The notes under the pieces: generated by a model
The model's database searches: none
What the model saw: only the letters and a program-made list of their open reading frames with translations
Told to the model about the DNA's origin: nothing
DNA from: Owenia fusiformis
Lineage: Eukaryota; Annelida; Polychaeta; Sabellida; Oweniidae
DNA length: 64,000 nt
Direction of reading: 5' to 3'
Assembly: GCA_903813345.2 (NCBI GenBank)
Contig: CAIIXF020000003.1
Coordinates: 34,397,000-34,460,999, forward strand
Translations under genes and position numbers: made by a program
In this document: piece by piece, positions 6,457-40,994 of the stretch
How positions within the stretch are numbered: position 1 is the stretch's first letter
Layout of the letters: the number at the start of each line of letters is the position of its first letter

Positions 6457-6858
6457 GAAACATTACATGTGCTTGACTGCATCCACATAGATCGACTAGC
6501 CACAGTGTGTGATGTCAATACCTAGGTATGGGATGTGTGTTACCGACTTAAGGTTTTCCCCTAGCATGGTGTAATTGTGAATGATAGGGGATTTACCTTT
6601 GTGAATATTTAGCACATAGCATTTTGATGGATGGAATTTCATTTGCCATGTTGATGCCCAGGAGACCAGTTTATCTATATTCTCCTGTAGTGTTAATGCA
6701 TCTTGCTTGCTTTCGACTGTCATGAATAAAAGGCTGTCGTCAGCAAATAGTTTAAGACTGGCTGAGGATGATAGGTTGTTGCCCATATCATTGATATAAA
6801 CAAGGACACAGAGTGGTCCAAGAACTGTTCCTTGAGGAACTCCTGATTTTTGTATCAT
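6457..6858 (-). pseudogene. LINE reverse transcriptase fragment
   Basis: The minus strand (6496-6858) encodes about 120 residues with core motifs of non-LTR reverse transcriptases: a SGVPQGTVLGP block, a YIND motif, and the catalytic FADD box followed by the thumb-proximal helices, ending in YLGIDITHCG. It starts and stops inside the domain, so it is a truncated dead copy. Its 3' part (about 6457-6520) has a second diverged copy at 27905-27965. Confidence 0.88.
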
Positions 6859-7427
6859 ACATTTAACTAATTACCTCATTACTACACACCAATCTTACAA
6901 AAGGAGCACACAGCAATTTACACGAAATTTAACAAAACAACCATTGTTTTGAATTTTGAAATTTATTCTGTCATTTAACATTTTTATTTTTCCTCTGATC
7001 GCAAGTTTGCAGATGCTGCTTTCCATAATAACGACATTCATTAATCATGTTTGCTTCGTTGTTTAAACTTAATTTAGTCTATCTGCAAAAATGATGTTTA
7101 GCATTGGCAGTCCTGACCAAGACCAAGTGACCGTCCTCTCATGCCTGAATGAATCAGACTCCCAACATTTGCACACTATCCATGGTATCGTATCATATGG
7201 TTTCGCCTATACTTTATATTAAAGAAGAACCAAATATGACAACATTTTATACATTGCTTCATATGGGTATGTAAAAAAGTCATTGTAAATTCTACATGTT
7301 TGACTAGCTTTGTATAATTTTCAATAATTATACTTACTTAATTATTCAAAACAAAAACCACATTAATATACGTAACCACAAGCGCTTTTGAAAATGATCA
7401 ACTTAATCATAAACTTTCTGTAAAATG

Positions 7428-7487: not shown

Positions 7488-7578
7488 ATGGCTCGCCTCA
7501 TCTTACTGCTTTTGATGATCTCGTGTATAATGATGAGCTCAGGAGCTAAACTCAAGAAAAACAGGAAAAGCAAGATGA
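7488..7578 (+). CDS. Exon 1: signal peptide
   Basis: Starts at ATG 7488 in the context AACATGG. Encodes [19 protein letters not shown] and a short basic stretch ([11 protein letters not shown]). The hydrophobic run and small residues before Ala fit a cleavable signal peptide of about 20 residues. Ends at a strong donor (GTAAGT, 7579) in phase 1, matching the acceptor phase of the first TSP1 exon 8.9 kb downstream. Confidence 0.82.
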
Positions 7579-13500: not shown

Positions 13501-16500
13501 TTCAAAACTGTGTGCGAACGAAATGAACGTAGCTGCAACTTTCTAAGGTCTATTTTCGAACTTTATGAACGTTCTCAGACGGGAATGTGATTTTAGAATT
13601 TTGAATCGATTCAAAATTCGATGGCGACCATACCGTTCTATAATCAGGTCATAATGACCTTCTAGACTAAGGGACGCGTTCTACGACGTTGCACACCGAC
13701 CTGGTGCGACCTGAACGAACTGCGAACGAGATGAACGTATTGAAGACTGTTTAAGAACGAAGAAGCATTCATCTTAGACTCTGGAGGATGTACCATCTTA
13801 GATTCTGGAGGATTTATTCATCTTAGACTCTGGAGGCTGTACTATCTTAAATTCTGGAGGATGTATACATCTAAGACTTCAGAAGCTGTACCATCTTAGA
13901 TTCTGGAGGATGTATTCATCTTAGACTTTGGATACTGTACAATCTTAGATTCTTAAGGCTATAACCATCTATGACAATGGAGGCTGTACCATTTTAGTCT
14001 CTGGAGGCTGTTCCCATCTTAAGACTCTGGAGGCTGTGCCCAATTTAGAGTCTGTAGACTGTACCATCTTAGGCTCTGGTAGCTGAACTATGTTATAGTC
14101 TAAGTGCTCTACCATATTAAGGCATGGGATGATACTTTCTAGGGATTGAGCCGCATGTTCTCTGGGGATTGGAACACGGTGCAGAATTTTGAATCAACAT
14201 TGCAACATACATGTACACTCTAAACATACATATGGTAGAATACTCTCATAGTCAATATATTGCAAATGACATGGATTGAATGGGACCGCAACTTAGTCAG
14301 CACCTCAGCTTATTTCAGCAGTTGAGGTTACATTATTTATATTTTCACTTATCAGGCTATTGCTGAAGCACTTAATAAAAAAATAAGAACATTTATGATA
14401 ATTACAGGCACAACAATTAGATTGAAAAATATTTGAACTCCTTTGATACTCCTTTTAAGTAAAAATGTAGTTAAGATAATAAGTAGGTGTCCCTGGCCCC
14501 GCCCACATTTTACATTAATCACGTTTTGTTGCTATGACCTACTGTGAGTAATTTGCGACCCATTGTTACTATTGACCAATTATGATCAAGATTACCATAT
14601 CAATTGACGATAATGGGATTGATGACCCTATGAAAATGACTGTGATAATAATACCAACATAAAATTAATAGGAAATGCAACCAAAAAGTGCCACGCCCAC
14701 TTTTCAATTCACCCCTGCCCCATGATGTTAGAATTGTCAAAATTAAGAACATAAATATATTCTGTTCATCTACAAAATTATATTTTATTGTATTTTACAC
14801 ACCATTGGCACAATAATATGTTGAATATTTGGTTGATATACCTCTTATTTTAAAAGGATGATGTTGCTCTCACCCTGACCCTAAAACTGGACCTAGAAAA
14901 TGAACAAATTATAAGAACTTAAATAATTTTTTTCTGTCAAACAAATTAACCTACAGTACTGATATTCATAGTGTCTAATGTCTGATAGTAGGACAACTCT
15001 CATGAGTTTTTAAAAGTACTCACTATGTCTAAAGATCAAATTATAGGCATTTATAGAGAAAAATGGGTGAAAAAAGCATATAAGGTAAGGTCATGAACAC
15101 ACACAAAAATGAAATTTTCTCAATATTTTCAAACTTTCTTCTATGAAACTATCAATTTTGATATCTTTCTTATCCATACATGAAAAAACAAGGGACACTT
15201 TAAAAAGAAAGTAGTGTTATAATTGTTTTTAAATAAATTGTTGTCATTTTGGGGGGTCATTGAGGGGGGTATCTTCAGCATGAAAATTCATAGTCTTCCA
15301 CTACTTAGATTTTTCTAGATTTTTGATATGTTTTTTTACTTATCAAGACACATTGATTTCACCAGGTTTAAAAACTTTTGCAATTTTTTCCTTTATTTTT
15401 GTGTTTTTTACTGGACGAGACCTAAACACGTTGTGTTTATATGTCGTTTTGTTCCAATGAGGTTCGGATAGATATTTCATTTCATTCCGAATATATGATA
15501 CCAAGAACGAAAAAAGTGTCTGATGTGTTTTTCTAAAACAATATAGAGAAAAGTCTATATATATAATTCAAATTATAATGTTACCATCCAAAAGATGACC
15601 ATTAAATGGACGATGTGTAAAATTTTCAGATTGTTTTGATGACTGGTTTAAGAGAAACGCGTGTTCAAAAAGTTCATCATATCGATACCACTCCTTTGCA
15701 AGGTCAAATGTCAAGGTCATCAAACTAAATCACAAACTGTGTTTTCTTAGTTTATCAAAGTTGATGATTACAAATCAATATTTTTTGATGAAAGTCAGAA
15801 TATATATTCCACTAAAGGTTCTACACATATAAGCAATTGACTATCCATTAAAATTGTGCGACAGTTTTGAGATATTAGACCTCAAAAACTGAAAAAAGGT
15901 CAAATTTCGAAACTTTTCAAGACTAAATTTCAACTTGCTTCAAATTGACCAAACATTTTTTAAGATCATCAAAACTATTCGAACGACCCTTGTATTTAGG
16001 AGTACATATACACGATAAAATGTGACCTATGTTCATTAGTAGTAGAGGACAGTGATGCAGAGTCATTAAGGTTAATGTAGGCCCACTTGATGTCTATGCA
16101 AATAAAAGCAATAATATACTTACATTTTGTGAATTGTGTTATATTTGGTCTATATTTAACGTGACAGAGTAGTGCTCGATGATTTATTAATGATAAAACG
16201 CATTATTAGTTAATACATAAATAAAGGGGGGGGGCACTAAAAACTAGCTTTCGAATGATGCTGGTTTTTAGTGTCCCCAAGGGGACATTCAAAACTTCAA
16301 GGGGGACAAGCATCCCCAGGGTTAACTGTCCCACGGACACTGGCCACTGGGGACACTTAGATCTGTTACACCGGTTGGTGGGTTTTTTAAAAAAAATTTA
16401 CATGTATTATATGATATTGAATGTAGTTTTTAAACCTGTGACACAGAAATAAAATATTTTAAACTTTAAACTATTATTTTTTATTCCATAGAATGGTCAA

Positions 16501-19500
16501 CTTGGGAACCATGGAGCTCGTGTGAAAGTCTAGACAACCCACTGGCTGTGCGCCGTCGATTTTGTGTGGACGCATCTGGGAAGAAAGTGGACGATTTAAA
16601 ATGCTCAAATGATAAATGCGACAACTTTGAGGTGGATTGGGAGTATTGCAAGGTTCCAAAAGGTGAAAATTAACTATTGTGAAGTTTAGGAAAAATAAAC
16701 TAGTGGATATATACATCATTGATTATATTTGAGGTTATTATTTGTATTGCTATGTTTTTGATTCATTATCAGACACGCCGCCTGAATGGACGCCGTGGGG
16801 AGCGTGGACGGGATGTGACCCAAGTGTTTGTATACCCGGGATGAGAGTCAGAGATTGTATGAAAGGAAACATCAAAGTTGCTGATTGGCGATGCAGCAAG
16901 AGTGCAAAGGGAGTTGAGGTCAACATTTTTCATTGTGAGAGCTGTCGAGGTATGTACGACTATTCCAATTAGTTTTGGATCAAGTTGATTTTTATTCGAA
17001 GAATTTCATAAAAATATTTTGTTAACTAGAACAATATAAAATTCGATCCAGTTTCCATGTACCACTGTGTGTACAAAGTCAAATGTATTCTGTTTTCCTG
17101 CTTATTATAATAAAAGTGCCGCGTGGCTTAAATTCCTAAATGGCGTTTTGCCGAAATCGTATTAAGTGAAACTCAAATTGATTTTCCGTCTATCATACAT
17201 CCGTGATGCTATAAGGGCAAAGGGGTTTCAGGAGCTGAAGCACGTAGAATCCCTTTAACATCCGAGTAAGACAGTATGCGCTCAAATAACCCGCTTTCTT
17301 TCCTGAGAATGCGCGAAGGTAGTGACGGATATATATCTGAGGCCTTACAATTATAGTTGCAGAACGGCAAATTGTATACAATACAACAGCTGAGTTGACT
17401 GAGAAGCAAAGGAAACAACTGAAGAAAGCACATGGGTCACCACATAGGGCAGCAGAAAGAGAAGGGTTGTCATGGGTAGTGACCATTTCTCTTAACGGAG
17501 AACACTTCTGTAGCGGAATTATTCTTAGCGATAAGTGGGTAATCACTGCTGCACATTGTATGTGTGGAAGAGATGGCAGCTGCTGCGATAAATCCAACAG
17601 AATGATGTAAGTAAATTTATTTCTTAGCAACGAAGTGCTTTCTAATCCACCAAAACAAATGTTGATTTCTCTGCCATTGCATATCTTGACCAAAATAATC
17701 GACATTTACAAGTGACAAGTAATAAAATGCTCTATACTTATATCAAAGGGGTTCAAGAAATTATATTTCAAAGTTTATAGAATTTCGAATCTTTAACTCT
17801 TCTGCATTTTTTCAATTCCAATCTTTCCTGTATGAAACTTAAAATGGTATTACACATGTGTATCACTGGCGGATCCAGGAGCTAACAAGAGGGGGCACAT
17901 TTTAAGTCAAGAAAAAATCGCGGAAAAAATGTTGGGTGGCCCTGCAAAATTGTTCGGCCAAAAAACGTTGGGGCCCTAACATTTTTTTCTTGGCCCGTCC
18001 AACGGGGGGGGGGGGGGCATGCCTCCCCTTTAGATCCGCCAGTGTGTATCTTTATATCTATATGGCGCGATCTACATGTCCTATATTATTGAAAATTCAA
18101 ATTATATTTCATACAATGTTGGCCGACAATGCCGTTTAAAGATGTGATACAAAGAGTTGGAAAGTCACTGCTGGAATCAGAGATATTTCGAAAACAAAAG
18201 CAAAACACGCCCAGTCCAGAAAGGTTTCCCGTGTGATTGTTCCTGAAGACTACATACTCGACCTTTTACATAAGCCTAAAAGGAAAATTATTATGGACAT
18301 TGCTTTGATAGAATTGGATGCAACTTTCGATTTTACTCCAACTACTGTCCAGCCGTGTCTGCTACCCGCCAGAAGGTGTACCACCATGGGAACGGGGGAA
18401 GTCTGTGAACATTTTGGTAAATGGGCTAACAACCGAGAGTGCCACTCCGCGGGATGGGGTGAAGAAGTCAGCAAGTCAGGAAGTCAGTCATTTTTATCAT
18501 TTTAATAAATAAGTAAGAATCTGAATTTGTTAGAGTCATTACATTTGTAGCCAACAACGTGGTTGGTATCCAGGCATGTTTTTGAGAGAGGGAGATTAGG
18601 GATCAAGTGGGGAGTAGGATAAGGGCGAGAGAGGCATAGGGAAGAATAGAGACAGGGAACAAGTATTTGAAAAAGATATCAGCGTTTTTCCAAGTTATTG
18701 TTGTCATTGAACTTTGTGCACATTCCATTTAGTATACTATGTATCTTTGACGTAGGGAATATTGGAAGAAGAATAAAGCTTATGATTGATTTTAATTTAA
18801 CCGTTGGAACTGATGGAAATGAAGGTAGCTTCAGAACGATACCTGATGGTCTTAATAGAGGTCAAGTGCGTGGAGTAAGTTCAAATTCATTGAGCTGCGA
18901 TACGTAAAACCTTTTCATCATTGTATTTAAAAAGAATTCTGAACCAACTTAGAGAAGGCGAGATAATAAATGAATAGGCTAATCCAGTAAATAATGCCAT
19001 CTATTGGTCATGATGTCATTCTTATAATTTCAGTGCAGAAATAGGATTAAAATATTGCTAATTCTCAAAAACTTCTTTCAATTTTGTTTACAAACATTGC
19101 TGCCTATATCTAACTAATATACCCTAGTTTCCTTGGTTCACAAATAGGGGTCAGGATTTATTGAAAAGGTCTATTGTAAAAATATTTTTGGATTGGGGCT
19201 TTGAGAAAATAAGATATATATTCCCGTCGTTGCAGAGATATCATTTCAAAGGATACCTAGCACATACTGCATAATAAAATCTGAGCAAAGGCATTTACAT
19301 ATTTTCTGTTAGGGTTTTAGTGGAGGTCCATTGGGATGCGAAAAAGAAAATACAACCATCGGAGGAGTTGTTCCACCACAGAGTGATGTCGTTATAGGTG
19401 TCAACAGTTTAAAACTTATTGCTCATAAGAAAACATCGCCGATACTTCACTCTTCTCTGTTCGACAAAACTACAATGACGTGGATAGCTGATAAGATTGT

Positions 19501-25500: not shown

Positions 25501-28500
25501 ATATCATGCATGGCTCTTTGAGTCATCTATGGGTTCTGGTTGAGAACCACAACCTAGTTGGCGATTCTTTCCATATCATAAATGGCTCTTTGAGTCATCT
25601 ATGGGTTCTGGTTGAGAACCACAACTTCGTTGGCGATTCTTTCCATATCATGCATGGCTCTTTGAGTCATCTATGGGTTCTGGTTGAGAACCACAACTTC
25701 GTTGGCGATTCTTTCCATATCATGCATGGCTCTTTGAGTCATCTATGGGTTCTGGTTGAGAACCACAACCTCGTTGGCGATTCTTTCCATATCATGCATG
25801 GCTCTTTGAGTCATCTATGGGTTCTGGTTGAGGACCACAACCTCGTTGGCGATTCTTTCCATATCATGCATGGCTCTTTGAGTCATCTTTGGGTTCTGGT
25901 TGAGGACCACAACCTCGTTGGCGATTCTTTCCATATCATGCATGGCTCTTTGAGTCATCTATGGGTTCTGGTTGAGAACCACAACTTCGTTGGCGATTCT
26001 TTCCATATCATGCATGGCTCTTTGAGTCATCTATGGGTTCTGGTTGAGAACCACAACCTCGTTGGCGATTCTTTCCATATCATGCATGGCTCTTTGAGTC
26101 ATCTATGGGTTCTGGTTGAGAACCACAACTTCGTTGGCGATTCTTTCCATATCATGCATGGCTCTTTGAGTCATCTATGGGTTCTGGTTGAGAACCACAA
26201 CCTCGTTGGCGATTCTTTCTCGAGGTATTGCAATGTCTGGTGGAACGATGTGGACACTGGTCTTCACCCAAAAAGGACAAAGTCACAACAAGTCATGTCT
26301 TCTAATAGCAGCAAGCCAGTACATTGGCCTTTTCAATGTCTTAACCTTGGTCCCGAGTCGACTTTCGTCCACTACAATGTATGTACCAAAGAATATGGCA
26401 TGGTATATTGAATGAAACTGATCTAATGGGGATTTCACTTTAAAATGTCATAGTATATATCTTTTAGGCTATTTAGGAGTCGATGATGGGCAAGAAAGCT
26501 AATGTTTACTAGATCTAATAGGGATTTCACTTTAAAATATCATAGTTTATATCTTTTAGGCTATTTAGGAGTCGATGATGGGCAAGAAAGTAAATGTTTA
26601 CTAGATCTAATAGGGATTTCACTTTAAAATGTCATAGCATATATCTTTAAGAGTAGATGATGGACAAGAAAGTAAATTTTTACTAGATCGTTTAGGGATT
26701 TCACTTTAAAATGTCATAGCATATATCTTTAAGAGTAGATGATGGACAAGAAAGTAAATTTCTACTAGATCGTATAGGGATTTTACTTTAAAATGTCATA
26801 GTATATACTGTATAAACAAGATTAGCATTCATGTACGTTTGTAATAAAGCAATGGATTTTCGAATTATAACACAGCAAGTTTAAATTAAGAAAAGTTATA
26901 CCCATGGCCTTCTCCACCAATGTGCTACTGCAATATCTTTATCGACGCCTGTGTTGACCAGGACAATTTCTTATTAACATAGAATTAAAAATAAAAAATG
27001 AATGAAGTCTTACTTTAAAAATTTCCCATGAAACAGAAAGTTTCAGTTTCCTTTCTGTATCTCACTTGTTGGGTACATGGAGCGGTGAAATAATCCACAG
27101 TGCCGAAAAACAATAATGATGCTATATTGGTAATTGGAAGATTCCACTTACAACTATTTCAAAAAATTGTAAATCGATATTAGTATTCTTGAATTTGAAT
27201 CAATTGTTTAAAGGAATCATCGAGATTTACGGATGGTCCATCTGTTGATTGCTCTTCGCCACTATCAAACAATGTTTATGGCCCTGGAACTTGATCTTTG
27301 GGTAAAACAGTGGGTTGGTGTGTCTTTGGCTCTGAATTCACTTGATTGTTGTACCCGATTGCAATATTTTCATCGTCATCATTACATTATATGGACCCAT
27401 TATTCAAGTTCACAATATTAATGATGAAACCATAGATTTTCTTCTGTAATAGCATTTTCCGGTTGGTGGATTTATATCTAGTCTATCAATTCTCAATTCT
27501 TCATAAGGTTGTCTTGTAAGGGTGTGGTCAATTGCTTCACTGAATGAGGAATGTTTATCCAAGCAATGGATACACAGGATATCTGGCCAGTTGTTCTTCT
27601 GTAAATAAATTATCATGACAAAAGTAAAATTTCTGATAGCACCCATTTGTTACCGTTCTGGATCCAAATCTACATATTGGCATCCGTTTTATACATATAT
27701 GTTTACATTTACGAAATGTTGTTCAAATATCTTCTCTATTACAGGAATGTAAAAGCTGAAACTATCCTATATTGTCCTACTATATAATATTGAATATGTA
27801 TGCAATATTTCAAGACTCAATGTTTAGTAGGAACTCTGAAATCACTAACCTCGATTTGCTGTTATATTTTTGCAATGACCCCATCCCCTATAATGTTCGC
27901 AGGCACTTACGATACATTACATGTACATCACTGCATCTACATATTTCGACTAGCCACAGTGTATAACGCATTATTCTAATTTACATATGCACTAATTCGT
28001 AAGAGTATAATGAATATTTTTTACATTGTGTTAATTTTTCCGAATTTACAGAATTTTCAAAAATATCATATAGGTATTGATCTAAATGAAAATAAGACGC
28101 CAGTAGTTGACGCTGGTGGTGAATTCGGACCTGACTTGTTCACGAGAAAGGCAATGGAGAATATCGAAAAGCACGTTGGTAATGATAATGTAGGTCTCCT
28201 AATTGAATTGCTCCTTTAATACATAAAGATTCAATGCAACAACTTACTTTATCGTATCTTCTATTATGTACATTTCGCGGCAGAAGAATGCGCTTGACAA
28301 TGTGTCACAGTTGAAGTTTGGTGGAACTATTTAGTTGTGGTAACGCTTACTTATAGTACAATCAAGGAAACATTGTTTGGATTTCCTAAACAGAATATCA
28401 CTAAATTACGAACACATGTATATGATAACTTTGTAGCACATGTTTCTCACGGTGGCGTACGATACCGAGCTTCCAGAGTCGACGGAACACTATCGCAATA

Positions 28501-31500
28501 AAATTACACAGATAAAAGATACCACGAGGAAGGACTTCGCAGGTGCGATTGCTATATAGTTCTTAGTGTATATAAATAACAATAACATTGAGCTAGACAA
28601 ACATATCGGTGACCAAGTATCTTATAACCACAAGATGTAGCTAGCGTTTTGAATAAACATGCTAAAAGCAATGATGGTCAGGTAGTATAATAAGATTGAG
28701 CTCAGACAAACATAATTATATACAAAATTGGACCCCTGCAACAGGCTATATTTTCCTTAATACTTGCATTAATTGGCTCATATTATCACATGTTGTAGAG
28801 AAAGGTCTAAAGTTTGTACAAAATTTTACCAAGTGATTCACTGAAATTGTTTAAACACATAGGATGATCTTAAAACAGCTTTCAGTTAGAGATACAAGTT
28901 TAAAACCTTACCATGTGACAAATGGGACACTATTTGAGCAGAAAATACATTTCACACTTTCATTAATTATTCCGAAGCAGTTTTAACCATTCAACAGTCA
29001 AGGGGCATGTTACCTACATACACATTTAGATGGGCGCCTCTTGTAGAAGGAGATTGCCCCCTGTGACCAGGAATCCGAGAAGCCCTTCATCAAATATCTT
29101 TTAGAAATCAAAAGAAAATCTAGTGTTCAATGTTTTGAGCCACATTTCATTAGAATTGGTCCATGATTTATGAATATATTGACATTTCAAGATCATATAG
29201 GGGTATGTTGCGAATTTCTGGAAAATATCTTTGTCTATGGAAACTTAGAACCTTTCTTCGGATCACAATTGCAACTAACAAAGGTAGGATGCTAGAGTTT
29301 ACGCCATAGTGTGCAGGATTCAAAGCCAAAATCACATTTTATCCATTTTCAGTAATATTTGTCTAGGGCTTATTATTCCTGCAGTGTATGGTACCATTAA
29401 AAAATTTAGACCTTCCTCTACAGTATCTTAAAATATAAAAGGATTCCTGCAGGTAATAAGCAGGGGTTCGCTTTTTTGGACCACCCTGTACATGGCTTCA
29501 CGTTTTTTCATTACTTACAAGATAGAGCCCATGCTTACAATTAACAATTACATTGAAATACAGCTTCACCTCTATCGTAGCAATGGTTAATGCGATTGAT
29601 ACAGGGGTGGGCAAGATCATACAGAAGCTCAAAGACACTGGAATGTGGCAAGACACTGTCCTCGTATTCACAAATGGTAGGTTATCTCCCTCTTATATAT
29701 AGGGCAGCCCAACTACTCGTGAAATGTGTTAAGCACGACAATAGGGGGTGGATGAAAAACTTTTTTATTTTATTTTTTTAATGCATAGCTTTGCCTAGTC
29801 ATGTGATTGTGCGTAATATATTGTCAGGATTTACACTCCCCTCCATAAGTTTGGCAACCTTTTTTCCCCCATTGAACTACGTGTTAAAGCCTCTTTACCT
29901 TTGAATTTTTATTTACTTAACCTGCGATGAAAATACTTATACTATTGATGGAAACGTAATTTGACTTTAATTCCAATACCTCCAAACTTTCTCAATTTTT
30001 TTCCTCAATTACAGTAGGTCGAAAATTGATGATGAATTTGATGGATTTTTGAAAATCGACATTCCCATGTTAACCAATGCGAAATGGTAGGTTTGCCGCA
30101 AGTCATATGACAGAATATCCATCCATCCGAGTCCTTGCAAAAAATACGAGTTAGGCAGGTAATTGAATTTGCTAACTTTATTTAACAAAAAATTGATATG
30201 TTTCTTCAGGTTCAACAAAGTTAAAGGGCTTTAAAGTCAAAATTGTTTTTCAAAAAACCTCTCCCATTGAAATAACACAGGAGGCGAAAAATTATTTTCA
30301 AAAATGACTTTGAAGCGCTGTAACTTTAATATTCATCAAATAAACTAAACACTTAGTGTTCAAAAAAGTTAAACAATTCAATTTTCTATATAAAAATATT
30401 TTTTGCTGAATCTTTTACTGAAAAGATATCCTGATTTCTGATTTGCCCCGAACCCTCCATTTCCCATTGGAATACATGGGAATGACGATTTTCAAAAATT
30501 CATCATCAATTTTCGACCTATTGTAATTGAGGAAAAAAATTGAGAAAATTTGGAGGTATTGGAAATAAAGTCAAGTTACGTTTCCATCAATATTATAAGT
30601 TATTTCATCGCCGGTTAAGTAAATAAAAATTCAAACGTAAAGAGGCTTTAACACGTAGTTCAATGGAGAAAAAAGGTTGCCAAACTTATGGAGGGGAGTG
30701 TATATATGTTTTCTTATGCCAAATAAGGAGTTTTGTGGGTCGAACGATTGTATTTATGCACTCTGTTAATGTTTGATTGACACCCCAATTAAGGATAGCT
30801 TGCCGTAACATGGAAAGGCATCTCACGTTTAGTCACTGCTGCCTGAATCGAATACTTATTAGAAGTTCTTACTATTAGACTATGTTATTCTTGCAGTTGA
30901 CTATACATTTATATTATATAATAACATATTTTGACAATTTGATAGCAAACGTGGATACACTACTTCACAACTAGCAGGTACATGGCTCAGAGGAATGGCA
31001 GATCAGTGAAATTTGAGGTTAATTTTAACCATTTAAGCATTCTATCAATGAACATGCATTCTCTTTTTATTCATTTTCAGACAGAGGAGGACATGTGAAG
31101 AATGGTAATAATAATTGGCCATTACGAGGCTCAACTTATAATTACTTCGAGGGAGGAATTCGGGGCATTGGAATTGTTGCAGGTCCCGTCGTGACAAAGA
31201 AAGGTGATTTTTGATGTTGTAGGCTAAAATGCGTTGGTAACTGTGCAGAGTTAAATAAATATTTATATATTTATGAAACAATTTATGTAAAAATAGAAAC
31301 AGAGTGTGTCTGTCTCTATAGGTAAATAGGTGCAGAAAATTCCTTTTTTGTTTGCGTGTTTCATTAATTATTCCAAATAAAAGTTGTGAGTACATTTACA
31401 ATGTTACCTTACATAACATGAACATAACGTTTTAAATATATAACTTATCTGTCACCTAATGGATCCTAATGGATATGAGTTTCATTTATAACTTTATAAC

Positions 31501-34500
31501 AGGGCGATCTCATTTTATATTTAGCAAGGACGTGTGAGGATCCCAATTCACAATTATATCATGTGGCTGACTGGTACAAAACATTCCTGAATCTCGCAGG
31601 GGCAAATGTAGGCGACTCAGGGGCAGACTCACACGACATTTGGTCATCCATTAGGTAATTTGATAAAATAACGGAATTTAACACCTGTTATTGCACATTC
31701 TGACCATATATAAGCCTAGTCAGGTTTAGAATCATCAAATCCGAGGATAGTTCCATGATTAAATATATGTGCGCTAGTGCCGAAAGAAAAGAACCAACAA
31801 TATTAGATTACACAGCAAGAAAATGAAAGTACATCAGCCATAAGGGAAATACATCCCAACAATCCCAAACCATGATTTAACAAGCCCACAGCGCAACGCC
31901 AGGGGCAATTGCATTTATTCTGAAGCCATTACGATACATATTAAAGTAACTGATTACCAATACTAATAGAATCGAAAATAGTTTTAGATAGTTTAATGTA
32001 TGTATATTCATAATAAAGAGCATTACGTTTCAAATGACGTGTGGCAGACGAAATCCAGTCTCTAAATCCATAAGCACATCAAAAGGTCATCATCCATCCT
32101 CAAAGTCGACGCCATATAATGCAGCACAAAATTTCACTATGGCTGGTTTTGATCATTTGAAGTGTTTTTTTTTTTTATTTTAGTTCATGCAGCCCAAGTC
32201 CACGAACTGAGATTCTCCACAGTCTTAATCATGCCATGCCAAAGCTCGGGGAACCTATCGACAGAGGTACATTTGACAGCTCTATTACTAGCGTGTTGAG
32301 GATGGGAGATTATAAACTGTTCACTGGAAGTAAGTATACAAACCTGGAAGGTGTCTAATTACTCATCCGATCTTTCAACCAATATGTTGTACATTGGCCC
32401 TCTCTCGTTGTTCAATGACATGCAAAATATCGACGTTTTTAATATTCCGGTAAAATATCTATCTTCTAGTCCTCAGATGAAATGGAATAATCCTTTTGAG
32501 GGTAAAACCTAATATTTCAAACCTGAAGACTACAATCCACAAGATAAAATATCAACGTATTGATTTTCAATCACATTTTGTATTATGCAAACCATAGGGA
32601 TCTCTTTGATCGGGGGTTTCACTGGATGGAAGGCACCGGTTGAAGAACCCGAAACCACCACGATAGAGCCCGACCAGAATGTTACAAGGAATGTCCACCT
32701 ATATAACATTAAGGATGACCCACATGAGATGAAAGATTTGAGTGATGAAATGAAAAATAAGGTACAATATAAACATGTTTGTCGGAACAAACAGTTTGTC
32801 AATTTACCATTGATTTCACCACTTCCAAATAAATGAGCTATTATATGGAACTTTGATGAATGCAGCTTTTAAGTCTTGCTACAAGCCCTTGTGACACAGG
32901 GTCTTGTTACCACAAGGTTGGTTCTTCCCACTGCTATTACTTGTACATGCGAAATGCAAACATACTCAAAGGCATTACCTGCAGTTGTATGATTCGATAA
33001 GTAGGCAAAATCTAATGAGAGTGACCCCAACCCTGACAGAATATTCCCTCACAAATGATCCAAGTGTCACATTGGTGTGATAACTTTTGTATATAATCCT
33101 AAATAGGTCAACAGTAAGAAAAGAGATTATTAATTATGAATAGAAATATACTCATACATTTTCAATTTAAAAACAAGAACCACCGAGACAAAAGTGTTGT
33201 CTATCAGTCTATGAAGAATATTTTATAAAATAAGGTTTACAAAGGGGAGAATGAGGCTTAGGCAATAATTCATTCCTCCATGTGCACTGATTTATTTGGA
33301 GAATGCTCTGGCTGAAAACATCAATGAATCTTGATTGGCTCTTTTTAAATGAGTCAAACTATTTCCACTTCCGATGATTAAGAGGGGAGCATCAGTACCT
33401 AGACTGTGATTGCAGGAATCAGTTGTTAGTTCAGTTGTGTATATAGTCCAGGGTCTTAAAGCAAGACTCAATGTATTCAGTACAATTGTGTATACAGTCC
33501 AGGGTCTTAAAGCAAGACTCCAGTTGTCAGTTCAGTCGTGTATATAGTCCAGGGTCTTGAAGCAAGACTCCAGTTGTCAGTTCAGTTGTGTATATAGTCC
33601 AGAGTTTTGAAGCAAGACTCCAGTTGTCAGTTCAGTCGTGTATATAGTCCAGGGTCTTAAAGCAAGACTCCAGTTGTCAGTTCAGTTGTGTATATAGTCC
33701 AGAGTCTTGAAGCAAAACTCCAGTTGTCAGTTCAGTTGTGTATAGTCCAGGGTCTTGAAGCAAGACTCCAGTTGTCAGTTCAGTCGTGTATATAGTCCAG
33801 GGTCTTGAAGCAAGACTCCAATTGTCAGTTCAGTTGTGTATATAGTCCAGGGTCTTGAAGCAAAACTCCAGTTGTCAGTTCAGTCGTGTATATAGTCCAG
33901 GGTCTTGAAGCAAGACTCCAGTTGTCAGTTCAGTTGTGTATATAGTCCAGGGTCTTGAAGCAAGACTCCAGTTGTCAGTTCAGTCGTGTATATAGTCCAG
34001 GGTCTTGAAGCAAGACTCCAGTTGTCAGTTCAGTCGTGTATATAGTCCAGGGTCTTGAAGCAAGACTCCAGTTGTCAGTTCTGTTGTGTATATAGTCCAG
34101 GGTCTTGAAGCAAGACTCCAGTTGTCAGTTCAGTTGTGTATAGTCCAGGGTCTTGAAGCAAGACTCCAGTTGTCAGTTCAGTCGTGTATATAGTCCAGGG
34201 TCTTGAAGCAAGACTCCAATTGTCAGTTCAGTTGTGTATATAGTCCAGGGTCTTGAAGCAAGACTCCAGTTGTCAGTTCAGTTGTGTATATAGTCCAGAG
34301 TCTTGAAGCAAGACTCCAGTTGTCAGTTCAGTCGTGTATATAGTCCAGGGTCTTGAAGCAAGACTCCAGTTGTCAGTTCAGTTGTGTATATAGTCCAGGG
34401 TCTTGAAGCAAGACTCCAGTTGTCAGTTCAGTTGTGTATATAGTCCAGGGTCTTGAAGCAAGACTCCAATTGTCAGTTCAGTTGTGTATATAGTCCAGGG

Positions 34501-35321
34501 TCTTGAAGCAAGACTCCAGTTGTCAGTTCAGTTGTGTATATAGTCCAGAGTCTTGAAGCAAGACTCCAGTTGTCAGTTCAGTTGTGTATAGTCCAGGGTC
34601 TTGAAGCAAGACTCCAGTTGTCAGTTCAGTTCTGTATATAGTCCAGGGTCTTGAAGCAAGACTCCAGTTGTCAGTTCAGTTGTGTATATAGTCCAGGGTC
34701 TTGAAGCAAGACTCCAGTTGTCAGTTCAGTTGTGTATATAGTCCAGAGTCTTGAAGCAAAACTCCAGTTGTCAGTTCAGTTGTGTATAGTCCAGGGTCTT
34801 GAAGCAAGACTCCAGTTGTCAGTTCAGTTGTGTATATAGTCCAGGGTCTTGAAGCAAGACTCCAGTTGTCAGTTCAGTTGTGTATATAGTCCAGAGTCTT
34901 GAAGCAAAACTCCAGTTGTCAGTTCAGTTGTGTATAGTCCAGGGTCTTGAAGCAAGACTCCAGTTGTCAGTTCAGTTGTGTATATAGTCCAGGGTCTTGA
35001 GGCAAGACTCCAGTTGTCAGTTCAGTTGTGTATATAGTCCAGGGTCTTGAAGCAAGACTCAAGTTGTCAGTTCAGTTGTGTATATAGTCCAGGGTCTTGA
35101 AACTTAACGATGAAACCAGTAAACGTAAGGTAAATCGTTGATACATTAATGAACAAATTTATATTTTGAAGGTAAAGGAGATGTTAGACAGGCTAGACGT
35201 ATTACAGGAATACACTAAACCTGAACCGTTTTCTTGCCCTGATCCAAAAGGACGTCCTGTGCTAGAGAGAAAGGATATCGTTTCTGATGAAGCAGTATAC
35301 GTATGGAAACCATGGCTATAA
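7488..35321 (+). CDS. Secreted TSP1-TSP1-S1 peptidase-TSP1-EGF-arylsulfatase chimeric protein (20 exons)
   Basis: Assembled by hand from 20 coding exons (listed separately), total 3156 nt, about 1051 residues. Domain order: signal peptide (1-20), basic linker, TSP1 (31-87), TSP1 (88-146), S1 peptidase-like (147-438), TSP1 (439-493), EGF (494-534), sulfatase (535-1051). Splice phases agree at every junction, and most domain boundaries fall on phase 1 introns, as expected of exon shuffling. The sulfatase part resembles arylsulfatase B throughout, including the final VWKPWL. Both enzyme modules have altered active centres: S1 Asp194 is Phe; the sulfatase formylglycine Cys is Ser with several ligands lost. 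Expected to be secreted and N-glycosylated. I do not know a named gene with this order. An alternative is two adjacent genes, but no stop, polyadenylation signal or new start lies between the S1 and sulfatase parts. The least certain junction is TSP1-3/EGF. Confidence 0.85.
7723..7760 (+). repeat. Perfect short tandem duplication
   Basis: The 18-base unit TTACTATGACGTGCACGG occurs twice in a row in intron 1. It contains a TGACGTGCAC core resembling a cAMP-response or E-box type site, but regulatory function is only a possibility. Confidence 0.7.
8138..8640 (+). repeat. Dispersed repeat, copy 1 (second copy at 36051-36477)
   Basis: About 500 bases align in the same orientation with 36051-36477. 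Both copies begin near TTTTCAAAATTGTGTAAGG and end near the CGCGACGTGTA block; the middle shares the CTCGAGATCTTG-type segment followed by ACCCTGTGAATTTTATCA. No coding potential. Probably a nonautonomous transposon or a LINE tail; the class is unknown. Confidence 0.75.
8750..9376 (+). pseudogene. LINE 3' fragment: C-terminal zinc-finger region of a reverse transcriptase
   Basis: A 208-codon open frame with no ATG at its start. Its last third has the pattern [20 protein letters not shown], a Cys-x2-Cys...His...Cys finger typical of the C-terminus of non-LTR retrotransposon polyproteins, preceded by the common [16 protein letters not shown] segment. Reverse transcriptase core motifs are absent, as expected of a 5'-truncated insertion. 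It lies in intron 1 of the chimeric gene, same strand. Confidence 0.8.
9945..10030 (+). repeat. tRNA-like SINE head (A and B boxes)
   Basis: TGGCGTAATGGTA (A box) is followed by GGTTCGAATCC (B box, about 10014), and CCAGG-TTCGAAT-CCTGC can fold as a T arm with four of five pairs. No acceptor stem forms around it, so it is not a working tRNA gene; a tRNA-derived SINE head is the likelier reading. Confidence 0.4.
10114..10317. mobile_element. Short inverted-repeat element (MITE)
   Basis: The ends TACAGGGTACGGTTAAG and its partner near 10317 are inverted over about 29 bases around a shared TTGCAAATGGAG block. Terminal TA on both sides fits a Tc1/mariner-type TA target. About 200 bp, no coding sequence. 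It sits inside the left arm of the large inverted-repeat structure. Confidence 0.65.
12580..14110 (+). repeat. Minisatellite, about 49-bp double unit, interrupted by an insertion
   Basis: Tandem imperfect units alternate between forms of TCTGGAGGATGTATTCATCT and TCTGGAGGCTGTACCATCTT, from 12580 to 13075 and again from 13767 to about 14110. The array is split by a 690-base copy of another element (13076-13766). It forms the loop of the large inverted repeat. Confidence 0.85.
13076..13766 (+). mobile_element. TIR element family, copy A (3' truncated) inside the minisatellite
   Basis: Begins AACCCTACTATCACACC as in the complete copy B (24367-25149) and follows it closely, but stops at GAACGAAGAAG, lacking about the last 110 bases including the 3' terminal inverted repeat. 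ATTCATCT occurs on both flanks (13068-13075 and 13767-13774), but that octamer is part of every minisatellite unit, so it cannot be taken as a sure target duplication. Confidence 0.8.
16492..16662 (+). CDS. Exon 2: first TSP1 domain
   Basis: Encodes a thrombospondin type 1 repeat starting [11 protein letters not shown], with the WxxWxxW ladder that is a known C-mannosylation pattern, then RRRFC, CSNDKC and YCK. Cysteine count and length (57 residues) fit the family. Acceptor ATTCCATAG, donor GTGAAA; both ends phase 1, so this is a symmetrical, shuffle-competent module. TSP1 repeats bind glycosaminoglycans and extracellular proteins. Confidence 0.9.
16773..16949 (+). CDS. Exon 3: second TSP1 domain
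   Basis: Encodes [15 protein letters not shown], then [11 protein letters not shown] and HCESC near the end. It has the TSP1 Trp ladder and six or more cysteines. Phase 1 at both ends, separated from exon 2 by only 110 bases, which suggests local domain duplication. Donor GTATGT. Confidence 0.9.
17357..17606 (+). CDS. Exon 4: N-terminal part of S1 peptidase-like domain
   Basis: After a charged linker ([20 protein letters not shown]) the frame reads [19 protein letters not shown] and then WVITAAHC, the first barrel of chymotrypsin-fold peptidases, with the catalytic His at about residue 213. A usual activation site (basic residue followed by IVGG) is missing; the equivalent position reads KAHGSPHR. 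Enters in phase 1 after TTATAG and leaves in phase 2 at GTAAGT. Confidence 0.88.
17864..18044. mobile_element. MITE between S1 exons
   Basis: Inverted ends CACTGGCGGATCCAGG and its complement (ending 18044) flank a G-rich, noncoding interior. TGTAT is present immediately on both sides (17859-17863 and 18045-18049), a likely 5-base target duplication. The element ends about 100 bases before the next coding exon. Confidence 0.78.
18142..18458 (+). CDS. Exon 5: middle of S1 peptidase-like domain
   Basis: Reads [14 protein letters not shown] (strand after the first barrel), IVPEDY, then [14 protein letters not shown], where the Asp (about residue 282) is the catalytic Asp of the DIALI motif, and ECHSAGWG, which holds the Cys that normally pairs with the one after GDSGGP. 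An in-frame stop follows soon after, so the exon must end near GWG; the donor GTGAAG at 18459 in phase 1 fits the next exon. Confidence 0.87.
18756..18874 (+). CDS. Exon 6: S1 second barrel
   Basis: Continues the S1 domain with [26 protein letters not shown] and NRGQVRG up to the residue before the catalytic Ser motif. Acceptor GACGTAG, phase 1 in; donor GTAAGT, phase 0 out. The spacing from GWG to the catalytic Ser is shorter than in typical trypsins. The position equal to Asp189 of trypsin appears to be Gln, and the usual Cys191 is Arg. Confidence 0.8.
19313..19502 (+). CDS. Exon 7: catalytic Ser region and C-terminal helix of S1 domain
   Basis: Opens with [20 protein letters not shown]. 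This is the GDSGGPL motif with the catalytic Ser kept (about residue 378) but the Asp replaced by Phe. It ends with [11 protein letters not shown], the C-terminal helix of the fold. Asp194 normally takes the new N-terminus after activation; its loss matches the missing IVGG in exon 4. Phase 0 in, phase 1 out at GTACGT. Confidence 0.88.
19623..19786 (+). CDS. Exon 8: third TSP1 domain
   Basis: Encodes [18 protein letters not shown] and ends near RKCIEG. It is a TSP1 repeat with the WxxW and RRTR features but fewer cysteines than the first two. The acceptor is TTGTTAG in phase 1. The 3' end is uncertain: the better donor (19785) leaves phase 1, while the next exon needs phase 0, given by a weaker donor at 19787 (used here). 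Confidence 0.75.
20302..20425 (+). CDS. Exon 9: EGF-like domain
   Basis: Six cysteines in order [12 protein letters not shown], then CKC and GWIGPTC: the complete EGF spacing, with the usual Gly-Trp before the last cysteine. No calcium-binding N-terminal consensus is seen. Acceptor ACATAAG; an in-frame stop just upstream (TAA, 20293) limits where it can begin. Leaves in phase 1 at GTAATG. Confidence 0.85.
20538..20722 (+). CDS. Exon 10: sulfatase N-terminus and degenerate formylglycine site
   Basis: Starts [20 protein letters not shown], the first strand of the alkaline phosphatase/sulfatase fold. The first metal Asp (about 545) is kept, the second is Ala. The active-site segment reads [20 protein letters not shown]: the Cys-x-Pro-x-Arg signature has become Ser-Thr-Ala-Phe-Arg (583-587), so no formylglycine can form by the animal route. 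The surrounding LDNYYV and LMTGRY are well conserved, so the change is not a misread frame. Confidence 0.92.
20883..21359. mobile_element. Foldback element (MITE-like)
   Basis: Long inverted arms: GTGACCTTTGAAATCGAATT from 20896 is mirrored by its complement ending at 21345, and the match extends about 150-170 bases inward through GGTCTCTAACTG and the AATCCGTGTAAGTATT block. No coding sequence. Lies in the intron between sulfatase exons 10 and 11. Confidence 0.8.
21566..22541. mobile_element. Foldback element with TA-type ends
   Basis: TACAGGGCGTCCATATG at 21566 and its inverted partner ending 22541 share CAGGGCGT and TTCTTGCAAAAGTA. Inverted matches continue inward near 21690-21750 and 22380-22440 around TTGCTATAG. 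Terminal TA fits a Tc1/mariner-like target preference. The interior shows no transposase motif I recognise. Confidence 0.7.
22562..22720. repeat. Short palindrome
   Basis: Inverted arms 22562-22615 and 22665-22720 share GTCTAGAACTTC and AGAAAGCACG. It abuts the previous foldback. A (TA)n run follows at 22946-22969, just before sulfatase exon 11. Confidence 0.65.
22991..23174 (+). CDS. Exon 11: sulfatase, GKWHMG block
   Basis: Frame begins [16 protein letters not shown] and continues [20 protein letters not shown], then NRGFDYFYG. The GKWHLG-type motif with active-site Lys (about 636) and His (638) is intact, as are the AGY and RGFD landmarks of family S1 sulfatases. Enters in phase 0 and leaves in phase 1 at GTAGGG. 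Confidence 0.92.
23541..23990. repeat. Foldback element with GGCCTGCCTGATCTC segment
   Basis: The left arm (TTAAGAAGCTGGCCTGCC, AAGTTGAAAAATTAATT, CACCAAGGGGTGA) is mirrored on the right (TTACCCCTTGGTGG to AGGCCAGCTCCTTAA). A direct duplicate of the segment AAGCTGGCCTGCCTGATCTC also occurs at about 23418. Noncoding; ends about 100 bases before exon 12. Confidence 0.75.
24096..24248 (+). CDS. Exon 12: sulfatase with Cys-rich segment
   Basis: Begins [17 protein letters not shown], equal to the G(S)xxDYxxH region after the RGFD motif in arylsulfatase B, then runs through a basic, Cys-rich segment with [16 protein letters not shown] (five cysteines in about 30 residues). It is richer in cysteine than I expect for this region. 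Phase 1 at both ends; acceptor TTTTAG, donor GTTTGT. Confidence 0.85.
24367..25149 (+). mobile_element. TIR element family, copy B (complete)
   Basis: Terminal inverted repeats: CTATCACACCAAACTAGTT at the 5' end and its exact complement at the 3' end, with more diverged flanking TAACCC and GGGGTAA. An internal near-copy of the 5' end (AGCTATCACACCAAACAAG, about 24761) shows that the element is built from two related halves. The interior is dense in GAACG and AACGAG motifs and has no plausible transposase. Partial copies lie at 13076-13766 and 42771-43386. Confidence 0.85.
25153..26415 (+). other. Unrecognised open frame running into a 72-bp tandem array
   Basis: A first frame (25153-25521) encodes about 95 nonrepetitive residues (including [16 protein letters not shown] and [16 protein letters not shown]), then enters the array in one frame, while another frame (25407-26411) stays open through the whole array. 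Nonrepetitive sequence resumes to 26415. I do not recognise it. It lies in the intron between sulfatase exons 12 and 13, directly after TIR element B, and may be a captured gene fragment or the remains of a transposon gene. Confidence 0.35.
25476..26218 (+). repeat. 72-bp minisatellite, 10.3 copies
   Basis: Each unit reads CACAACTTCGTTGGCGATTC followed by TTTCCATATCATGCATGGCT and so on; copies differ by only one to three bases. Since 72 is a multiple of three and the unit lacks a stop in one frame, a 24-residue peptide period ([13 protein letters not shown]...) stays open. High copy identity means recent expansion. Probably not a protein. Confidence 0.92.
26415..26810 (+). repeat. Second tandem array, about five units of 85-115 bp
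   Basis: Units share AGGGATTTCACTTTAAAATG, TCATAGTATATATCTTT and GATGGGCAAGAAAG and begin near 26420, 26510, 26605, 26695 and 26770. It adjoins the 72-bp array but is unrelated in sequence. The rest of this intron to 27900 shows nothing I can name. Confidence 0.8.
27905..27965 (-). repeat. LINE remnant
   Basis: Matches the 3' part of the reverse transcriptase fragment at about 6457-6520 (shared ATTACATGT, CTGCATC and CGACTAGCCACAGTGT). Too short for coding evidence on its own. Confidence 0.6.
28074..28189 (+). CDS. Exon 13: sulfatase
   Basis: Encodes [19 protein letters not shown] then [19 protein letters not shown]. The DLFTRKAM helix matches the conserved (T/N)IFTKRA helix of arylsulfatase B. 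A phase 1 acceptor at CATATAG is chosen over an upstream CAG because it keeps phase with exon 12. Leaves in phase 0 at GTAGGT. Confidence 0.82.
28437..28542 (+). CDS. Exon 14: short sulfatase exon lacking the usual active-site His
   Basis: A 106-base exon found by domain continuity. It encodes [20 protein letters not shown] then [14 protein letters not shown], corresponding to the FLYLA...H.PLQ.P..Y segment of arylsulfatase B. The hydrophobic strand and the PE..Y turn are present, but the His that binds the sulfate ester in that family has no counterpart. Acceptor TTTGTAG phase 0; donor GTGCGA phase 1; both phases agree with their neighbours. Confidence 0.8.
29581..29676 (+). CDS. Exon 15: sulfatase
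   Basis: Encodes (A)[18 protein letters not shown] then [13 protein letters not shown]. This is the conserved MVSxxDxxVGxxxxxLKxxGLWxxTxxIF block before the metal-binding Asp-Asn. Phase 1 at both ends; acceptor TATCGTAG, donor GTAGGT. Confidence 0.9.
29832..30702. mobile_element. Tc1/mariner-type foldback element
   Basis: TACACTCCCCTCCATAAG begins the element and its exact complement ends it, with arms of more than 200 bases inverted through TTTGGCAACCTTTTTT, CATCATCAATTTTCGACC and the GGAGGTATTGGAA block. Terminal TA on both sides is the classic target. The interior has no transposase frame. Lies between sulfatase exons 15 and 16. Confidence 0.85.
31081..31203 (+). CDS. Exon 16: sulfatase metal-site and WPLRG block
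   Basis: Reads [20 protein letters not shown] then [17 protein letters not shown]. It aligns without gaps to the DNGG...NNWPLRGxK...EGGVRG block of arylsulfatase B. The metal Asp (about 815) is kept, the neighbouring Asn is Arg (816), and the Lys after WPLRG is Thr (833). Phase 1 in after TTTTCAG, phase 1 out. Confidence 0.93.
31525..31654 (+). CDS. Exon 17: sulfatase
   Basis: Encodes [20 protein letters not shown], then [20 protein letters not shown]. It matches the HISDWLPTLxxLAG...DGxDxW block that follows the catalytic core in arylsulfatase B. Acceptor ATATTTAG phase 1, donor GTAATT phase 2. Confidence 0.88.
32184..32329 (+). CDS. Exon 18: sulfatase
   Basis: Begins [18 protein letters not shown] and ends [15 protein letters not shown]. 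This equals the SPRxExLHNID...AIRxGxWKLLTG region of arylsulfatase B. A long T-run precedes the acceptor; donor GTAAGT. Phases 2 in and 1 out. Confidence 0.9.
32598..32761 (+). CDS. Exon 19: sulfatase C-terminal region
   Basis: Encodes [18 protein letters not shown], then [20 protein letters not shown]. The LYNIxxDPxExxDLS motif is the standard C-terminal sulfatase landmark. Phase 1 in, phase 0 out at GTACAA. Confidence 0.92.
33419..35101 (+). repeat. 50-bp minisatellite, about 34 copies, in the last intron
   Basis: Consensus unit: GTCTTGAAGCAAGACTCCAG followed by TTGTCAGTTCAGTTGTGTATATAGTCCAGG in two parts. Several units are 46 bp, missing one of the TATA steps (GTGTATAGTCCAG), and these recur at intervals (near 33741, 34139, 34587, 34784, 34925). 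Together with GTCGTG/GTTGTG variants they suggest amplification in blocks of several units. The array ends about 70 bases before the last exon. Confidence 0.93.
35172..35321 (+). CDS. Exon 20: sulfatase C-terminus and stop
   Basis: Encodes [20 protein letters not shown], then SCPDPKGRP...VYVWKPWL and TAA. This is the final amphipathic helix and the Cys-x-Pro...VW-PW ending of arylsulfatase B-like enzymes, so the domain is complete at its end. Acceptor TTTTGAAG, phase 0. Confidence 0.9.
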   Translation, partial: VKEMLDRLDVLQEYTKPEPFSCPDPKGRPVLERKDIVSDEAVYVWKPWL

Positions 35322-40300: not shown

Positions 40301-40900
40301 ACTCAATTACATAGTCCCAGAGAGACATTCATTGCGAGACATCTCATATACTCAACGGGCAGTGTTAACAATACAAAAATTGGACATCGCCCATTCCCAG
40401 GACAGACATTTGAAGCTGGTATGATATAGACTTAAGACATAGACGTGTAAGATATTGCTATTATTATAAAATGATAGAGAGATTCAGTTCAACGGAAAGA
40501 GAGCCCTAAATATTCGCGATAGATCTATTGCGATAAAAATACCTGATAATTGGTGCTTTATAAAAGCTTCCTCTCACCAACACTAATCATCCTCAATCAC
40601 ATAGTACACCCCATGATCTATATATCATTATAAGGCTTAATTAATTTTGGACTTTTAGGCCAGGTATCGACATAATAGTTCATTTGGAACATAATTTGTG
40701 ATTTTTTCTATTTGTATATGCATATTCTAACGTTTTTCTGAATCCGCATGAATAAAATGGTGTACATGCTTTTTGTACAACCATAAGCTACATGTATGTG
40801 GCTGATTTAATAACTTTAATGTAACGTTTCAATTTTCCATCTTGACCACAAGGGACAGATATCTTCTAGAAACACGTGCGATTCATGAGTTCATACAAGT
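37388..40900. other. Intergenic region between the two genes
   Basis: AT-rich sequence with scattered short open frames, none with a recognisable domain or paired splice sites. A small inverted repeat (38411-38431 with 38490-38510, sharing AACGCTTGGT and TACCTAGA) and a tRNA-like segment near 39785 are the only structures I can name. Confidence 0.55.
39785..39870 (+). repeat. Possible tRNA-derived SINE head
   Basis: TGGTGTAGTGGTGGGA resembles an A box and GGGTTCAAATC a B box about 45 bases later. No closed acceptor stem can be drawn, so this is not a functional tRNA gene. Confidence 0.3.
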
Positions 40901-40915
40901 TCATATCAACTTGAG

Positions 40916-40924: not shown

Positions 40925-40994
40925 TATCTACATTGGTAGAAAATTCAACAACAATCGCGAGAGTCCTAGAGTCCTGATGTTACAAGACTTCAAC

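Follow-up and report, generated by a model that had tools for sequence, protein, structure and literature searches.

The gene at positions 7488-35321 of the window (the whole 64,000-nucleotide stretch of Owenia fusiformis DNA analyzed here) is strongly suggested to encode a single chain of the order TSP1-S1-TSP1-EGF-sulfatase, in which the sulfatase region is predicted to be catalytically dead and the S1 domain is likely a pseudoprotease. Both parts would probably serve binding rather than enzyme work, because the sulfatase lacks catalytic residues and the protease lacks its on-switch. The chain is one member of a family in this genome and not a singleton.

Gene model and exon structure

The gene was rebuilt from the sequence as 20 exons on the plus strand (7488-35321), and every internal boundary was GT/AG, with phases that agree. 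The coding length was 3156 nt, i.e., 1052 codons including a single terminal stop, leaving an open frame of 1051 codons; the 20-exon, 1052-codon model of the initial annotation was thus recovered. Phase 1 was found in 13 of the 19 introns and at all six module boundaries, the symmetric arrangement of an exon-shuffled secreted modular protein, and the earlier claim of phase-1 exon shuffling holds. The features of the gene are as follows:

7488..7578, plus strand: exon 1, carrying the start codon and the signal peptide and ending in phase 1
16492..16662, plus strand: exon 2, TSP1-like module a, phase 1-1; family profile reaches thrombospondin-1 at 2.7e-5
16773..16949, plus strand: exon 3, TSP1-like module b, phase 1-1; same exon 2/3 family profile
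17363..17606, plus strand: exon 4, S1 part 1, with His57 (TAAHC) and Gly-Ser at positions 16-17 by ungapped count
18142..18482, plus strand: exon 5, S1 part 2, with Asp102 (DIALIEL); donor 18482, alternative 18458
18756..18874, plus strand: exon 6, S1 part 3; no paralog match singled out
19313..19502, plus strand: exon 7, S1 part 4, GFSGGPL; Ser195 kept, Asp194 replaced by Phe
19623..19784, plus strand: exon 8, TSP1-like module c (TSP1c), phase 1-1
20318..20425, plus strand: exon 9, EGF module (Pfam EGF), phase 1-1; acceptor in the phase seen at C8 and C4
20538..20722, plus strand: exon 10, sulfatase region; D53 kept, D54 replaced by Ala, STAFR in place of the formylglycine motif
22991..23174, plus strand: exon 11, sulfatase region, GKWHMG (K145 and H147 kept)
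24096..24248, plus strand: exon 12, sulfatase region
28074..28189, plus strand: exon 13, sulfatase region
28437..28542, plus strand: exon 14, sulfatase region, H242 place without His
29581..29676, plus strand: exon 15, sulfatase region
31081..31203, plus strand: exon 16, sulfatase region, DN replaced by DR (N301 lost), K318 replaced by Thr
31525..31654, plus strand: exon 17, sulfatase region
32184..32329, plus strand: exon 18, sulfatase region (C-terminal part)
32598..32761, plus strand: exon 19, sulfatase region (C-terminal part)
35172..35321, plus strand: exon 20, sulfatase C terminus and stop codon
35519..35524, plus strand: AATAAA, possible poly(A) signal, 198 bases past the stop

Between 4001 and 16491, exon 1 alone brings together an ATG, a hydrophobic run and a donor in phase 1 under the criteria of this analysis. 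The choice between donors 18482 and 18458 for exon 5 leaves an ambiguity of eight codons. The junction between exons 8 and 9, placed at 19786/20302 by the initial annotation, was moved to 19784/20318. The former pair is in frame, but with the remaining exons of the rebuilt model it gives 1058 and not 1052 codons. The new junction was set because, at the matching places in the paralogs, the donors after TSP1c are in phase 1 at seven of nine loci, those shown in frame, and the EGF acceptors are in phase 1 at both C8 and C4 (all read by eye).

The introns and flanks hold further material. Fragments resembling the reverse transcriptase of non-LTR retroelements were seen by eye at 8720-9376 (plus strand, within intron 1), 6496-6870 (minus) and 44209-44523 (minus). 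A tandem array at 12580-14100 in intron 1 is broken by a stretch of several hundred bases, and a stretch very similar to this interrupter lies at 24370-24800 in intron 12 (both by eye); the shared stretch is probably a mobile element. Intron 12 also contains a 334-residue open frame (25407-26411) that is a minisatellite with a repeated unit of 24 residues, not a gene, and most of intron 19 consists of 34 repeat copies at a spacing of 48-51 bases (33421-35100, plus strand). Past the gene, SRCR-like open stretches were noticed by eye on the plus strand at 40806-41225, behind a signal-peptide-like start, and at about 47798-48145; these are probably the next gene downstream. A strand-biased minisatellite with long open frames in several frames occupies 51383-53136.

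Identity of the modules

From its N terminus, the chain comprises a signal peptide, TSP1-like modules a and b, the S1 domain, TSP1-like module c, one EGF module and an arylsulfatase-B-like region of full length. The order previously given, TSP1-TSP1-S1-TSP1-EGF-sulfatase, was confirmed by Pfam for three families and by a profile of exons 2 and 3. The Pfam matches, all above cut-off, were Sulfatase PF00884 at 1.9e-40 (residues 537-882, profile positions 1-301 of 301), Trypsin PF00089 at 3.7e-17 to 6.8e-16 and EGF PF00008 at 4.6e-9 to 1.6e-7; none of the TSP1 modules of the window chain was recognized by Pfam. When exons 2 and 3 were combined with the paralogous exons, the profile reached thrombospondin-1 (2.7e-5) and properdin (3.2e-4) in the PDB, which argues that the TSP1 identity of these two exons is right. 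Their alignment shows the pattern WxxWxxWxxC...RxRxC, with W6, W9, W12, C15, R25, R27, C29 and C41 invariant, and its members taken singly did not reach the Pfam TSP1 cut-off (best 0.024). The earlier TSP1 calls thus stand for exons 2 and 3; the exon 8 module, a candidate TSP1, had a best profile match of 0.045 and keeps the W, W, C and R. With its paralogs, the exon 8 module forms a unit of about 50 residues that has a family-specific conserved core (consensus RSGFFPEYGYLPGDGPLYQSY), and no Pfam model scored above cut-off in the members tested. It is perhaps an undescribed domain derived from TSP1.

The C-terminal 516 residues had N-acetylgalactosamine-4-sulfatase (1fsu) as their best PDB match, at 1.9e-84, in agreement with the arylsulfatase B kinship proposed before. 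The NCBIfam sulfatase models gave matches far under their cut-offs.

Conservation of the module order

Four queries were run separately against the whole genome (the two leading TSP1 modules, the S1 region, TSP1c and the sulfatase region), and EGF modules were read only in the loci fetched around matches. Two other loci carried the same modules in the same order: C8:30.228-30.257 Mb on the minus strand (TSP1 at 30.257, sulfatase end at 30.228) and C4:13.606-13.705 Mb on the plus strand. The intron between TSP1c and EGF measures 533 bp in the window (intron 8), 146 bp at C8 and 201 bp at C4, and introns of the latter two lengths are too short for the end of one gene plus the start of another. 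One chain is therefore likelier than two genes, and the earlier claim of one secreted chain is supported by the repeated order as well as by these short introns. The upstream half of the C4 locus is weaker evidence, because about 63 kb separate two of its S1 exons.

Loss of catalytic residues in the sulfatase region

The sulfatase region was scored against arylsulfatase B (1fsu), with the residue numbers of the human enzyme. The window chain keeps D53, R95, K145, H147 and D300, and it has changed D54 to A, C91 to S, P93 to A, S94 to F, N301 to R and K318 to T, with no His at the H242 place. The formylglycine motif CxPxR consequently reads STAFR, and neither CxPxR nor SxPxR was found in any of the seven paralogs. 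At the C91 place the paralogs have Ser (five), Pro (one) or Ala (one), never Cys; D54 and P93 are lost in all seven, and N301 is changed in all five with data. They retain R95 in seven of seven, K145 and H147 in six of seven each, D53 in five of seven and a Lys at K318 in two of seven, while a His-x-Pro could be placed by eye at H242 in two of the five with data. D300 spans a splice junction and was scored in the window only.

As a control, three of three intact sulfatase ORFs (C3:31.138, C8:34.012 and C11:9.017 Mb) have DD, CTPTR, K, H, DN and K, and a fourth locus, on C6 and aligned over 108 positions, shows DD, CTPTR, K and H. CTPTR was present in all four other sulfatase loci read (L023, L024, L025 and L027), in a genome with 53 exon-level Pfam Sulfatase matches. 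The formylglycine-generating enzyme (FGE) recognizes CxPxR (PMC7279497), the maturation consensus is (C/S)xPxR, with Ser-type sulfatases in existence, and the calcium ligands of PyuS are D15, D16, FGly55, D276 and N277 (both PMC8746622). The window positions D54 and N301 match calcium-ligand positions of PyuS, so that of the metal-ligand set D53, D54, D300 and N301 two members are gone (Ala and Arg, respectively). We know of no route to catalysis once the Cys, the Pro, one Asp and the Asn are all lost. These changes indicate a sulfatase region that, as judged from its residues, would be catalytically dead. Of the full arylsulfatase described in the initial annotation, the length therefore stands, with PF00884 covered from 1 to 301 of 301, and the catalytic residues do not (STAFR, D54, N301). 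The idea of enzymatic work on sulfated matrix was left unsupported, as the formylglycine motif and at least one metal ligand are gone in the window and in all seven paralogs, and the S1 switch is missing.

Phylogeny and selection of the pseudosulfatase copies

Trees were built with FastTree and IQ-TREE from query-anchored sulfatase rows of the window, the seven paralogs and the four CTPTR loci. The window and six paralogs formed one group apart from the CTPTR loci (support 0.998 and 100), inside which the branching was partly unresolved, with supports down to 53. The most diverged copy, C10b (L013, C10:22.988 Mb; 260 residues), has SSHTR, N-S for D-D and Q for K145, and it sits between the main group and the CTPTR loci. 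The formylglycine motif and metal ligands were probably lost once, in an ancestor; a second, independent motif loss is possible because C10b groups apart from the other copies.

The aligned parts of all seven paralogs were stop-free (260-494 of 515 sulfatase residues each), and the stops listed in paralog matches fall, as read, where matches overrun an exon. The Nei-Gojobori dN/dS between the window and C3:31.455 Mb was 0.137 (475 codons, 77% identity); it was 0.125 for C4a/C4b, and 0.157 and 0.171 for C4c against these two copies. These four pseudosulfatase pairs have dS below 1.3 (dN/dS 0.13-0.17), three further pairs with dS of 2.2-2.7 gave 0.09-0.12, and three intact sulfatase pairs gave 0.20, 0.097 and 0.083, where dS is close to 2 for the second and third; the other pairs were saturated. 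The values rest on few pairs because most pairwise dS is saturated, and they point to a pseudosulfatase still under purifying selection.

With C10b left out, 178 columns were invariant among the sulfatase columns covered by at least five of six pseudosulfatase copies; Y641 and Y655 are among the invariant residues. In 80 of the 178 the residue agrees with that of the three intact enzymes, whereas another 38 have settled on one unlike the residue that these enzymes share. Several of these 38 adjoin the old nucleophile (F586, A588 and S589), and F586, which replaces S94, is found in the window and six of the seven copies. It seems that the pocket was first re-lined and afterwards held constant.

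Five pseudosulfatase copies had no nearby S1 match (C3:31.455, C4:13.709, C4:13.749, C10:22.97 and C10:22.99 Mb), suggesting that the sulfatase module can be part of other genes too. The copy at C4:13.709 has EGF repeats, and neither EGF nor an S1 match was found in the 7.4 kb read upstream of C3:31.455. Two C4 pseudosulfatase paralogs showed eight (L006, 2185-3129) and six (L008, 6660-7580) consecutive EGF-like matches at the place of the single EGF module of the window chain.

The S1 domain keeps its triad and lacks the zymogen switch

His57, Asp102 and Ser195 are all present in the S1 domain of the window. Among paralogs with data they are kept in eight of eight, eight of eight and nine of nine, respectively; the stretch read of L018 lacks the first S1 exons. 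At position 194 the window has Phe and all nine paralogs have Phe or Tyr, and the residues at 16-17, by ungapped count, read Gly-Ser in the window and do not vary among paralogs with data, indicating that the Ile16-Asp194 zymogen switch is missing at both ends. Gly193 is likewise invariant in paralogs with data, in a region where 46 of 213 well-covered columns are. The combination found, triad kept and switch lost, is that of PRSS23 as far as sequence can tell, and no detectable serine-hydrolase activity is reported for that protein (PMC13194640). The S1 domain is thus likely a pseudoprotease. The conserved triad is as compatible with an active enzyme as with a scaffold.

A cassette with apparently exchangeable downstream modules

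TSP1c lies beside S1 exons in ten loci of the genome, the window included. Besides the window, C8 and C4, the pair was found in seven loci (three on C7, two on C11 and two on C3), with an upstream TSP1-like exon in L016, L017, L019 and L021; the stretch read was shorter at the other three. One further TSP1c match lies at C6:18.69 Mb (4.7e-5). Downstream of TSP1c, on the same strand and with a phase-1 start by eye, L019 has a PAN module (Pfam, 5.8e-9), L021 a classical TSP1 (3.4e-9) and L017 a fucolectin-like F5/8 type C_2 module (2.8e-8). We infer that these modules share transcripts with their S1-TSP1c cassettes. In the open stretches chosen past TSP1c in L016, L018 and L022, Pfam gave no relevant match; a first impression of C-type lectin in L016 and L022 was not confirmed, since no relevant family was returned.

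Proposed function

A secreted binding protein fits these data better than an enzyme does, because the sulfatase is predicted to be dead, the protease switch is lost, selection appears purifying and the cassette exchanges adhesive modules. The reading we prefer, which we hold with about even confidence, is a secreted modular protein in which both enzyme-shaped domains would be retired, the dead sulfatase serving as a binding module and the S1 as a scaffold. In this model, an N-terminal cassette of TSP1-TSP1, S1 pseudoprotease and TSP1c, whose family is expanded in this genome, would have acquired different phase-1 modules after TSP1c; in three loci, the window among them, the addition would be EGF plus an arylsulfatase-B-fold domain. 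The sulfatase fold would now bind a ligand, most likely a sulfated glycan or something else anionic; matrix would be bound by the TSP1 repeats, and the S1 domain would be a structural or partner-binding scaffold. The chain might then cross-link or recognize sulfated matrix, mucus or tube material, with no cutting. Glycan binding by the dead sulfatase is suggested by its ancestry and by the modules in the same slot, and the lack of protease activity and the biological setting are likewise presumed; non-chemical binding to sulfated matrix is possible. More specifically, and only tentatively, a lysosomal-type arylsulfatase may have turned into a lectin. With its formylglycine and metal sites gone, the fold would have been shuffled in downstream of a pseudoprotease cassette and retained as a module that binds sulfated glycans, in a family whose corresponding slot elsewhere carries PAN, TSP1 or fucolectin-like modules, all adhesive or lectin-like. 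If so, each such chain would consist of two retired enzymes and perform no chemistry. In the one study of marine adhesives consulted (PMC6262867), sulfated biopolymers occur in the adhesive secretions of several marine invertebrates, in every species except the tubeworm, and a tube role by simple analogy is disfavored because the tubeworm was the exception.

Alternative explanations

The arrangement might comprise two neighbors, one a TSP1-S1-TSP1 gene that stops at about exon 8 and the other an EGF-sulfatase gene of its own. Sulfatase copies without a nearby S1 match at five other sites, a stop at 19919-19921 when exon 8 is read onward and one ATTAAA at 19971 are compatible with such a split. 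Nevertheless, reading upstream in frame from exon 9 or 10, a stop is met before any ATG, and intron 8 holds no signal-peptide-like first exon: its best 10-residue hydropathy is 1.71, and peptides of the C4 intron reach 2.11 and 2.04, all under the threshold of 2.2. With the same junction reduced to a 146-bp intron at C8 and a 201-bp intron at C4, the order kept in three loci and the phase-1 sites matching, we consider two genes improbable. A decaying pseudogene or an assembly artefact would explain the lost catalytic residues, and this is extremely improbable given 1051 open codons with all splice sites intact, a dN/dS near 0.13 against the nearest copy and seven of seven paralogs stop-free in their aligned parts.

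Other explanations concern what the single chain does. The sulfatase part would still be an enzyme if the Ser of STAFR were matured to formylglycine, or if the fold performed another hydrolysis. Ser-type sulfatases are implied by the (C/S)xPxR consensus (PMC8746622), and D53, R95, K145, H147 and D300 are kept in the window. The motif Pro is lost too, however, together with D54 and N301, the matches of calcium ligands, and the nucleophile place, Ser in five of seven paralogs, is Pro or Ala in two, which makes retained enzyme activity very improbable. An active S1 domain with a non-canonical, constitutive fold, aimed at sulfated matrix by the dead sulfatase and the TSP1 modules, deserves more weight and is still unlikely. 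Chymotrypsin-fold enzymes without Asp194 exist, namely the HtrA and V8 types, and the invariance of His57, Asp102, Ser195 and Gly193 in paralogs with data, against 46 of 213 columns overall, would fit an unusual active protease. Against it, both switch ends are lost in all members with data, and PRSS23, in the same triad and switch state, showed no Ser-dependent activity (PMC13194640). The sulfatase region could also act as a regulator or decoy, e.g., by pairing with intact arylsulfatases or by occupying the formylglycine-generating enzyme. Inactive paralogs acting as regulators are a general theme, and intact arylsulfatase-like ORFs are present in the same genome. Such a role has a low probability in our estimation, as the CxPxR sequence recognized by that enzyme (PMC7279497) is destroyed and adhesive modules follow the S1-TSP1c cassette at three further loci.

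Comparison with known systems

Among the top matches listed in open PubMed Central text on sulfatases with TSP1, trypsin or EGF, on pseudosulfatases and on annelids or Owenia, no such protein appeared. The chain architecture may already be present, unannotated, in UniProt. PRSS23 is an example of a secreted pseudoprotease, and among the matches listed there was no counterpart of a conserved pseudosulfatase family with several copies, three of them fused to such a domain. Counts of sulfatase repertoires usually rely on the Pfam sulfatase domain, and the members of this family would thereby be mistaken for enzymes; some of the 53 exon-level Sulfatase matches found here come from copies that lack the motif. 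Should the dead sulfatase bind sulfated glycans, it would offer a natural experiment in turning an enzyme pocket into a lectin, and a candidate for matrix, mucus or tube assembly.

The arylsulfatase of sea urchins is an extracellular-matrix component, with the fold used outside the lysosome, and it resembles our proposal in having the arylsulfatase fold as a matrix protein; a literature search for non-enzymatic sea urchin arylsulfatase found no paper on the subject. As for architecture, the nearest printed one among the literature matches listed is that of the cnidarian TSR-trypsin proteins, e.g., Ap_Trypsin-like (two ShK, four TSR and trypsin), which join TSP1 and trypsin in one chain and are called a novel domain combination in their description (PMC5446238). 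They differ from the window chain in that the trypsin is C-terminal and, in the text available, neither EGF nor a sulfatase is named. The S1 domain resembles PRSS23, one of the PRSS23/PRSS35 pseudoproteases, which is secreted, keeps the triad and has Ile16 and Asp194 replaced (PMC13194640). The switch positions are Gln and Ala in PRSS23 and Gly and Phe in the window, and PRSS23 has one protease-homology domain behind a prodomain, unlike the window chain. Finally, arylsulfatase B (1fsu) is the best PDB match of the sulfatase region, with two aligned pieces reaching into the C-terminal subdomain. The window region differs from it in the loss of the formylglycine Cys, the Pro and Ser of CxPxR, D54, N301, H242 and K318, and in being fused behind TSP1-S1-TSP1-EGF in a secreted chain.
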